Shown one piece after another: positions 2,085-51,988 of a DNA stretch of 64,000 nt. The stretch covers positions 1 to 64,000 of the forward strand of contig NZ_CAJHBI010000008.1 of NCBI RefSeq assembly GCF_904846605.1, read 5' to 3'. The notes beneath the pieces are model-generated. The model made no database searches, was not told where the DNA came from, and saw nothing but the letters and a program-made list of their open reading frames with translations. Source of the stretch: Psychrobacter sp. 72-O-c. GTDB taxonomy: Bacteria; Pseudomonadota; Gammaproteobacteria; Pseudomonadales; Moraxellaceae. Numbering within the stretch: position 1 is the first letter of the stretch; every line of letters starts with the position of its first letter. The position numbers and the translations under genes were made by a program.

Positions 2085-2366
2085 TTAAAGCGCCGCATTA
2101 CCACTACAATAACGATTAACCAGTTCTATCTTATGGTTATGGTTTTTAGCCAATATAGTGCCATTAAAGACTAGGTAATCATCAGAGTCAGGTACAATAT
2201 CTTGTTTAGCTTGCTCCCATACTAGACTAGATCTTAGTTTGTTACCTCTAAGACAACGGTTAATACGAGCATGGCTGGTATTTTTAGGATGATGATCCGC
2301 ATAGTTGGTGATAGTGTAGTTGACTCACCATCAAGTACTGGCAATACGTATTAGTTGCTGCGTAAG
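2085..2366 (-). pseudogene. Decayed transposase fragment (IS701/IS4-superfamily-like N-terminal part)
   Basis: Reading leftward, one frame gives TYCQYLMVSQ. After a one-base frame change near 2320-2326 it continues VNYTITNYADHHPKNTSHAR, then INRCLRGNKLRSSLVWEQ, a D-D-Y-L-V-F-N-G-T-I-L segment and KIELVNRYCSGNAAL, followed by TAA at 2085-2087. The pattern 'Y..YL..SQ.NYT.TN.AD.....SH..INR.LR......VWE......D..Y..F..T.L.K.....IELV.R.YSGNA' is how I remember the start of a common IS701-like transposase. If so, about 90 of more than 300 residues remain, with a frameshift and a lost C-terminus. There is no intact start codon with a ribosome site. The family name is from recall, so treat it as probable rather than certain. 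Confidence 0.6.
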
Positions 2367-2377
2367 TCCTAATTACT

Positions 2378-2527
2378 CTATAGTCGATTCAATCTAAAAA
2401 CGATACCGTGCTACTGAGATGCATTTTTTGCAGCCTCTGTCCCGCTTGCGAACAGCACACAAGAAAAATTTATACCAGTAGCACGTTGCTGTACACGATT
2501 CTCTTTTATTGTAAACTAACTATATAT
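2378..2527. repeat. MITE-like repeat, copy 1
   Basis: About 150 bp with no coding capacity. The left end reads CTATAGTCGATTCAAT and the right end AACTATATA, forming imperfect terminal inverted repeats. Inside, CGTGCTACTG (2407-2416) is perfectly inverted as CAGTAGCACG (2476-2485). The right half, from CTTGCGAACAGCA through ATTTATACCAGTAGCACGTT, is nearly identical to the right half of the copy at 51825-51988. The element separates the transposase remnant from anmK. Confidence 0.7.
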
Positions 2528-40200: not shown

Positions 40201-40439
40201 AGTACGACTCCTATGCTATGTCGTGATGTCGGGTATTATTGTTCAACGGTATGCTGACTAATTCTAGCTATTATAAAGGTTTTTGCGAGGCTTTTTGGTA
40301 AAGCTTGCAATAAAAACCTTTATTAATAACCAGTTAGCTTTATTTACGAAGAATATAAGTTGGTCGGCCCTACTATTTATAAATCTTTAGATTAAACTAG
40401 GGCTAGCAACTCATAATATCTTGATAGTGTAACTTAGCG

Positions 40440-50759: not shown

Positions 50760-51806
50760 ATGAACAGTACTCAACAACCTAATCTACCCTCTCAGCAACT
50801 TGAAACTCGGCAAAATAAGTTACAGCAACTATTTGCGCAGCCGGTACGCCTTCTTGCGCCTATGGAAGGCTTGACCGATCCCTTGATGCGGCAAATATTA
50901 ACTCAAATTGCGTCAGATTTAGGTCGGCCTTACGATTGGTCAGTCAGTGAATTTATTCGAGTCACCCAGCATGTGTTACCGGCGCATGTTTTTTATAGAT
51001 ATGTCCCTGAGCTACATCAGGATGCCAAGACGGATACCGGTACACCCATTCATGTACAGCTATTAGGTAGTGAAGCACAGTTAATGGCAGAAAATGCGGC
51101 GTATGCTGCTGAGCTTGGTGCGCCTGCTATCGATATCAACTTTGGTTGTCCTGCTAAGACCGTCAATAGTCATCGAGGTGGCTCTGTACTGTTGGATGAG
51201 CCTGCGGTTATGTATGACATTATCAGTGCAGTACGCCAAGCCGTTCCCGCCCATATTCCGGTATCAGCAAAGATTCGATTGGGTTATACCGATACCAGTA
51301 GGATGGACGATATTCGTGGCGCTATCGCCGATAGTGGCGCAGATTGGCTGACCATTCATGCCCGTACTAAGACCCAAGGCTATAAACCACCTGCTTATTG
51401 GGACAAGATTCAAGCCTTTAATTCGCTCAAGATACCAGTGATTGCTAATGGTGAAATTTGGACCGCAGAGCAAGCCCATTCTTGCATGCAGCAAGCCGGT
51501 ACTGCGCATTTGATGTTAGGACGAGGGGCGATTACCCGTCCAGATTTGATTGCGAGTGTAGATAGCTCAGCAAATAATCCTATGAACGAGGATAAGGAAT
51601 TATCGTGGCAAGACTTGATAACACATCAGATTAAGTTCTTAGAAGGGAAAGCCAAAACTGACGTGGTATTAGTCGGTCGTTATAAACAATGGCTGGGCAT
51701 GCTGACTAAAGGCTATAGCGAGGCGCAAACCTTGTGGGATCAGATTAAACGTGAGAAAAATAAAGCCGTTATCATTAGTGCGCTACAAACTAGCACGCAT
51801 CAATAA
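50760..51806 (+). CDS. dusC: tRNA-dihydrouridine(16) synthase
   Basis: An FMN enzyme that reduces uridine in the tRNA D-loop. The order of motifs matches DusC: LLAPMEGLTDPLMRQIL, WSVSEFIRVTQHVLP, VQLLGSEAQLMAENAAYAAE, DINFGCPAKTVNSHRGGSVL (with the catalytic Cys), the HARTKTQGYKPPAYWDKI segment, and IPVIANGEIWTAEQA. The 348-aa length exceeds E. coli DusC (315) by an N-terminal Gln-rich tail and a small insertion near residue 265. Assignment to position U16 is by resemblance to DusC and was not tested. The MITE-like repeat starts 19 bp after its stop. Confidence 0.92.
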   Translation: MNSTQQPNLPSQQLETRQNKLQQLFAQPVRLLAPMEGLTDPLMRQILTQIASDLGRPYDWSVSEFIRVTQHVLPAHVFYRYVPELHQDAKTDTGTPIHVQLLGSEAQLMAENAAYAAELGAPAIDINFGCPAKTVNSHRGGSVLLDEPAVMYDIISAVRQAVPAHIPVSAKIRLGYTDTSRMDDIRGAIADSGADWLTIHARTKTQGYKPPAYWDKIQAFNSLKIPVIANGEIWTAEQAHSCMQQAGTAHLMLGRGAITRPDLIASVDSSANNPMNEDKELSWQDLITHQIKFLEGKAKTDVVLVGRYKQWLGMLTKGYSEAQTLWDQIKREKNKAVIISALQTSTHQ

Positions 51807-51824: not shown

Positions 51825-51988
51825 GTATATAGTTAAACCAATTCAAGAATGATGCAGTGCTGCTGGGATGCTACTGTAACAAACGTTTTGCAGGCTCGAA
51901 GCACGCTTGCGAACAGCAAGTCAGAAAAATTTATACCAGTAGCACGTTGTTATAAGCATATCTCTTATATATTGAATTAACTATATAC
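51825..51988. repeat. MITE-like repeat, copy 2
   Basis: 164 bp with clean terminal inverted repeats: the left end GTATATAGTTAAACCAATTC (51825-51844) and the right end GAATTAACTATATAC (51974-51988), which match over the outer 12 bases and again in ATTC/GAAT after a 4-base bulge. An inner CAGTGCTGCTGG faces CCAGTAGCACG. The right half is nearly identical to copy 1 at 2378-2527. There is no coding frame. Confidence 0.8.

Follow-up and report, generated by a model that had tools for sequence, protein, structure and literature searches.

The two short repeats that an earlier note had singled out in the analysed stretch of Psychrobacter sp. 72-O-c (64,000 nucleotides, hereafter the window) very probably belong to a family of non-autonomous MITEs of about 150 bp (short form) or about 160 bp (long form), the ends of which are recognised by an IS630 transposase and which insert at TA with duplication of the TA. 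In the proposed mechanism a transposase of the IS630 (Tc1/mariner-like) family would recognise the two ends of the MITE in trans, and the element would be inserted at a TA target that is duplicated in the process. As far as the open literature could be searched (subscription papers lay mostly outside the search), the repeats represent a MITE family of the known IS630-type kind that is new in sequence and host, and no publication describing this Psychrobacter family was recognised there. The family thus appears as a parasitic, gene-less element that has spread through most Psychrobacter genomes, whose middle keeps a hairpin while its letters change and which apparently relies on a larger transposon for the enzyme that moves it.

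Both repeats lie where they had been reported. Based on the family alignment and an empty site in a close relative (G091) their borders were refined to an element of 146 bp (copy 1) and one of 158 bp (copy 2), with the following parts:

2379..2524, + strand: MITE copy 1, short form (family alignment, boundary refinement, empty site in G091)
2379-2380 and 2523-2524: duplicated TA of copy 1, counted within 2379..2524
2379..2395, + strand: left terminal inverted repeat of copy 1, TATAGTCGATTCAATCT (pattern match with one mismatch; consensus)
2508..2524, - strand: right terminal inverted repeat of copy 1 (sequence, family alignment)
2408..2484, + strand: core of the inner hairpin of copy 1, conserved and covarying (match to structure model R1 with 87.0 bits, E 4.9e-22)
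51828..51985, + strand: MITE copy 2, long form, with both duplicated TAs included (alignment, boundary refinement)
51828..51844, + strand: left terminal inverted repeat of copy 2 (pattern, two mismatches)
51969..51985, - strand: right terminal inverted repeat of copy 2 (pattern, one mismatch)
51868..51945, + strand: core of the inner hairpin of copy 2 (match to structure model R1 with 54.7 bits, E 7e-13)

The terminal inverted repeats claimed before (TATAGT..ACTATA) are present in both copies. The inner inverted pair GTGCTACTG/CAGTAGCAC, which had been ascribed to both, matches exactly in copy 1, whereas copy 2 carries GTGCTGCTG plus a second sequence, ATGCTACTG. To call the right halves nearly identical was an overstatement, as they share 81% identity across 84 nt. 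The long form is represented by copy 2, whose left arm contains a repeated TGCTACTG segment. Both window copies are short and without a transposase gene of their own: the stop-to-stop frames over copy 1 do not exceed 49 aa, and no ORF of at least 100 aa was found over copy 2. Promoter-like sites at the two copies were no commoner than in shuffled sequences (1 vs 1.3 and 2 vs 1.0).

Far from being the only two copies and lacking an insertion boundary, the outcome which according to the earlier note would have spoken against a MITE, the repeats have many relatives with sharp borders. The BLAST search of both copies against their own genome (G000, 81 contigs), as proposed in that note, gave at least 40 and at least 41 matches for copy 1 and copy 2, the scored candidates being 40 of 52 and 40 of 67, and the core motif matched 48 times in this genome compared to 0 matches of the reversed control, numbers that greatly exceed chance. 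In an alignment of 48 regions, 40 of which (eight left out) were used to build the consensus, conservation extends from TATAGT to ACTATA and the flanks are free to vary. Besides the short and the long form, the family includes a second end type, TATAGTTGAGCCACTTTAAAACG, and internally deleted elements of 76-91 bp. End refinement retained 107 of 120 selected matches, of which 57 were left after removal of redundancy. A search pattern for the terminal inverted repeats, TATATAGTTNAATNNAAT, proved too narrow, with three matches against two control matches, and was discarded; no match to a terminal inverted repeat pattern was found in viral contigs.

The core motif was detected in 84 of 105 genomes of the same genus with up to 339 matches per genome, the reversed control giving 0 in all 105. 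A BLAST search with one copy found matches in 94 of these genomes (eight candidates scored per genome in most), and structure model R1 under strict filters found them in 98, as opposed to one of 243 other genomes of the bacterial family. This sole genome (G296), from another genus, contains two model matches, a possible case of horizontal transfer. Partial relatives with 71-78% identity occur furthermore in four plasmid records, three from Psychrobacter and one from Acinetobacter variabilis (NZ_CP029792.1, NZ_CP078030.1, NZ_CP100399.1, NZ_CP100399.2), and may indicate a route of spread.

Copy number and divergence vary between the genomes. Compared to the 48 core-motif matches in G000 there are 60 in G091, 96 in G073, 252 in G019 and 339 in G005, the last genome being a single contig of 2,650,701 bases. 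The median pairwise identity amounts to 0.80 in G000 (30 copies) and 0.84 in G091 (31 copies); in a sample of one subfamily from G005 (44 copies, 36 distinct) it reaches 0.97, and these near-identical copies indicate a recent burst in this genome. A strand bias in G005, seemingly indicated by listed places that were all on the + strand, was dismissed given the whole counts of 170 and 169; the 49 copies in 20 sampled stretches lie on both strands.

The mode of insertion can be read from the comparison of the 115-kb contig of G000 with the matching 120 kb of G091, a close relative with 95% identity over the 1601-bp query of copy 2. As the aligner placed gap edges some bases off, manual inspection of the alignments was used to place the junctions. 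The target-site duplications and empty sites that the earlier note had advised looking for were found in three filled/empty pairs, in which the empty site shows a single TA and the filled site a TA on both sides, as is characteristic of an IS630-derived MITE; at one of the three filled sites the left TA reads TG. Window copy 1 and the copy at C8:95793 are missing from G091, and one copy of G091 is missing from G000. Copy 2 is present at the same place in G091, like at least three other insertions, so that at least four are common to both genomes. The empty site in G091 implies that copy 1 was gained in G000 after the split of the two lineages; less simply, its absence in G091 could result from a precise loss.

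These sites also bear on the alternative that the repeats are an immobile shared regulatory element or a chance palindrome. Such an explanation might draw on the position of the copies, which are mostly intergenic and often near genes (an overlap with an ORF was flagged for 8 of 56). However, it is hardly conceivable in view of the empty sites with TA duplication, the many unrelated places of insertion and the near-identity of the copies in G005.

The conclusion that the MITE is probably mobilised in trans by an IS630 transposase is based on its two unlike ends, which match those of one autonomous element outside the own genome. This 916-bp IS630-family element (L189 in G073) has an OrfA with the HTH_Tnp_IS630 domain and an OrfB with the DDE_3 domain. 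Its ends agree with the right end of the MITE at 28 of 29 positions (genus consensus with one undecided position filled in; 25 of 29 with a variant taken from the own-genome consensus) and with the left end at 23 of 29 (own-genome consensus). For comparison, 171 kb of DNA from G000 and G091, a background that itself contains MITE copies, hold 96 TATAGT sites, of which 88 score at most 18 and eight at least 19. The suggestion of the earlier note that the elements are mobilised by a related full transposase is therefore well in line with the sequence evidence, namely the many copies, the TA duplication with empty sites and the matching IS630 ends.

IS630 elements are widespread in the genus, with matches to the model NF033545 in 96 of 105 genomes, above the curated cut-off in 67. 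Among 57 IS630 loci, some of them duplicates, the 32 whose OrfB is more than 70% identical to that of L189 include 24 with TATAGT on both sides, compared to 7 of the 25 others, the best-scoring TATAGT near each gene having been chosen, which favours a match. Four named plasmid IS630 elements from Psychrobacter, Acinetobacter (two) and Moraxella, taken among the matches listed (60 of 182 records with a match), likewise have TATAGT on both sides. Within the own genome, the IS630 element with the most similar end (L193, contig C34) looks truncated or interrupted when read, and a second end was not found for it. Another element (L190, C14) has open frames and TATAGT ends that are weakly similar (17 and 18 of 29). 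Autonomous partners sought between distant sites resembling the terminal repeats on C21, C4 and C6 of this genome were rejected, as ordinary ORFs or further MITE copies lie there. One partial IS630 locus was detected in viral contigs. In G005, despite its 339 core-motif matches and near-identical copies, no good IS630 partner turned up: the matches to the IS630 model are weak (best 6.3e-8), and a search with five query proteins found none in a 400-kb sample.

REP/BIME elements are palindromes without terminal repeats or target duplication that are associated with RAYT. An element of this type moved by a RAYT (Y1 tyrosine) transposase would equally be a palindrome of high copy number located between genes. 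Nevertheless, we regard this origin as very improbable for the Psychrobacter repeats, which possess both terminal inverted repeats and a TA duplication and whose full-length counterparts with matching ends encode a DDE_3 transposase. A table in a 2025 paper on REP repeats includes P. arcticus (PMC12306157, table as cited).

Copy 1 is situated between an IS701-family fragment (2085-2324, minus strand) and anmK (start 2598). The fragment matches NF049921 with 56.7 bits (E 2.4e-15), below the whole-protein cut-off of 250, and gave no match in a Pfam search. In G091, which lacks copy 1, the DNA of the fragment aligns at this same place, which indicates that the fragment is present independently of the MITE. 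The tie between copy 1 and the preceding transposase remnant, hinted at before, consequently fails, the remnant being of the IS701 family and also present in the relative without copy 1. Copy 2 follows the ORF 50760-51806 at a distance of 22 bp, and a convergent ORF has its 3' end 45 bp away. A further AT-rich palindrome in the window (40265-40332), scoring 24.4 bits with the hairpin model, was rejected as a family member because the conserved core is absent; it is perhaps another kind of hairpin, e.g. a terminator.

The inner part of the MITE is formed by a 77-position core, the fold of which comprises a 20-pair stem with an internal loop as well as a small apical stem. Core references were made for 52 of the 57 elements; 40 of these, one of them trimmed, entered the model alignment, while 12 long or arm-duplicated cores were left out. 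In the 40 cores 91.1% of the cells pair, 13 of 24 pairs have changed on both sides (shuffle mean 6.3, slid controls at most 7) and 44 cells show double changes (shuffle mean 10.8, slid controls at most 15), all as plain counts that are uncorrected for shared ancestry between the copies. The 57 whole elements gave a similar signal (17 of 30 pairs, 53 cells with double changes), and the helix formed by their terminal inverted repeats is paired to 90.3%. This inner hairpin may be kept by selection on its folded form (RNA or extruded DNA), by arm-to-arm palindrome repair, or by both.

According to one explanation the core functions as an RNA structure, for instance an RNase III or mRNA-stability stem like those described for Correia/NEMIS, for which the mobile ends are only the vehicle. 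The excess of double changes would agree with this, as would the loop sequence, which is near-invariant (AGNCTC and ACAGCA), and the position of the elements: an ORF 3' end is found within 60 bp of an element edge in 35 cases, an ORF start in 10 (counted by hand on 56 rows; one copy may count twice). In addition, G-U pairs outnumber A-C mismatches in the outer stem by 43 to 24, in contrast to 10 to 16 in the terminal repeats (two rows with inverted cores left out of the count). The other stem parts do not support this, however, since in the second part (48 to 23) 36 of the 48 G-U come from one pair and the apical stem has 3 to 20; there is thus no more than a hint of strand-specific RNA selection, confined to the outer stem. 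Nor do the 56 copies show a clear preference in orientation, 22 lying with and 16 against co-directional gene pairs, 12 between convergent and six between divergent genes. Neither window copy has a terminator-like site, the Rfam search gave no match at gathering scores, and the fold z-scores of single copies are modest (-1.9 to -3.2). Taking furthermore into account that the covariation counts are uncorrected for common descent and that DNA repair from arm to arm yields covarying arms as well, we consider a functional RNA core possible but rather doubtful. The earlier statement that the elements may act as RNA structures is partly supported by the covarying hairpin; covariation is no proof of a function as RNA.

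Alternatively, the stem may be symmetric through events at the DNA level, such as recombination of one arm with the other or template switching between them, without any selected function. Three of the 107 records (two distinct places; one more is ambiguous) carry an inner core in inverted orientation with respect to the ends. The two places, L043:231-384 (G000 C4) and L075:278-421 (G067), suggest flipping of the segment between its own arms; such arm-to-arm events evidently occur and can make the arms covary. The long form is likewise created by arm duplications. On the other hand, the loop is near-invariant despite a median identity of about 80% in G000, for which arm repair alone is no explanation. 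A purely DNA-level origin is accordingly a serious candidate, if one that falls somewhat short of being probable. Whatever its cause, the structure-conserved core makes the family a good case for asking if bacterial MITEs are selected as RNA. Independently of the core, transposition lends itself to direct assay here, as this large MITE family occurs across most of a genus and offers both a candidate transposase and clean empty sites.

Among described elements the nearest precedent in kind for the Psychrobacter MITE is RUP of Streptococcus pneumoniae with IS630-Spn1, according to the cited passages an element of about 107 bp with IS630-Spn1-like ends, a TA target, about 110 copies and a predicted secondary structure (PMC2229807, PMC3049150). 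It is likewise a short MITE with ends resembling an IS630-family element. Unlike RUP as described there, the Psychrobacter family belongs to another organism, differs in sequence, measures about 150-160 bp, has a separate conserved inner hairpin and extends through most of its genus. MITEAba12 of Acinetobacter and Moraxella resembles it as a MITE in the same bacterial family with proposed mobilisation in trans by a co-resident IS. In the cited account, however, it is 111-114 bp long with a 9-bp target duplication instead of the TA duplication found here, and the table gives GGCTTTGTTGC as the ends of related ISs (PMC6382973), so that the two are not the same element.

The Correia element (NEMIS, CREE) is described in the cited passages as occurring in classes of about 105 and about 155 bp with TATAGT.. 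ends, often a TA target and a stem-loop, as carrying IHF-site and promoter features and as unique to Neisseria (PMC2649163, PMC5039591, PMC2229807). The Psychrobacter MITE is similar to it in size class, TATAGT.. ends, TA target and stem-loop. Its left end agrees with one of the Correia repeats printed in PMC5039591 at 24 of 30 positions; when TATAGT was kept constant, 0 of 2000 shuffles reached this value. For the right end the agreement does not stand out (20 of 29, reached by 272 of 2000). No ends apart from the two tested left ends of the MITE stand out in this way (0 of 2000 each), the second having been chosen for looking similar. Fourteen IS630 ends were likewise compared with four Correia repeats; for eight of them the value was matched by no more than 100 of 2000 shuffles, for the other six by more, up to 632. 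A Correia-type end had 0 matches in 369 genomes from the class, a sample that may lack Neisseria. In contrast to the host described for Correia, the exact core matches of the present family, in six named genome stretches, all come from Psychrobacter. We therefore treat the relation as a resemblance, not as membership, the defining traits of a Correia element being the 26-bp Correia repeat at its ends, a core with IHF site and promoters, and occurrence in Neisseria; the cores were compared informally, with one short Correia copy (L265).

One could go further and suppose that the Psychrobacter MITE and Correia share the ends of one IS630 clade, that an IS630-type enzyme spread Correia too, and that the Psychrobacter core is an RNA structure which aids persistence in transcripts. 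We consider this combination unlikely, and the G-U count of the apical stem makes both it and the functional RNA core less probable. The mechanism mobilising CREE had not been determined as of a 2009 paper, in the passage cited (PMC2649163), and the Correia-like left end suggests the IS630 clade as a testable candidate. Together with the covarying inner hairpin this left end goes beyond what is routine for such a family, and both are worth testing. Three internally deleted elements of the own genome, L048 (84 bp, C1), L049 (91 bp, C2) and L050 (76 bp, C4), have kept their ends with most of the inner core missing and recall the short Correia forms.
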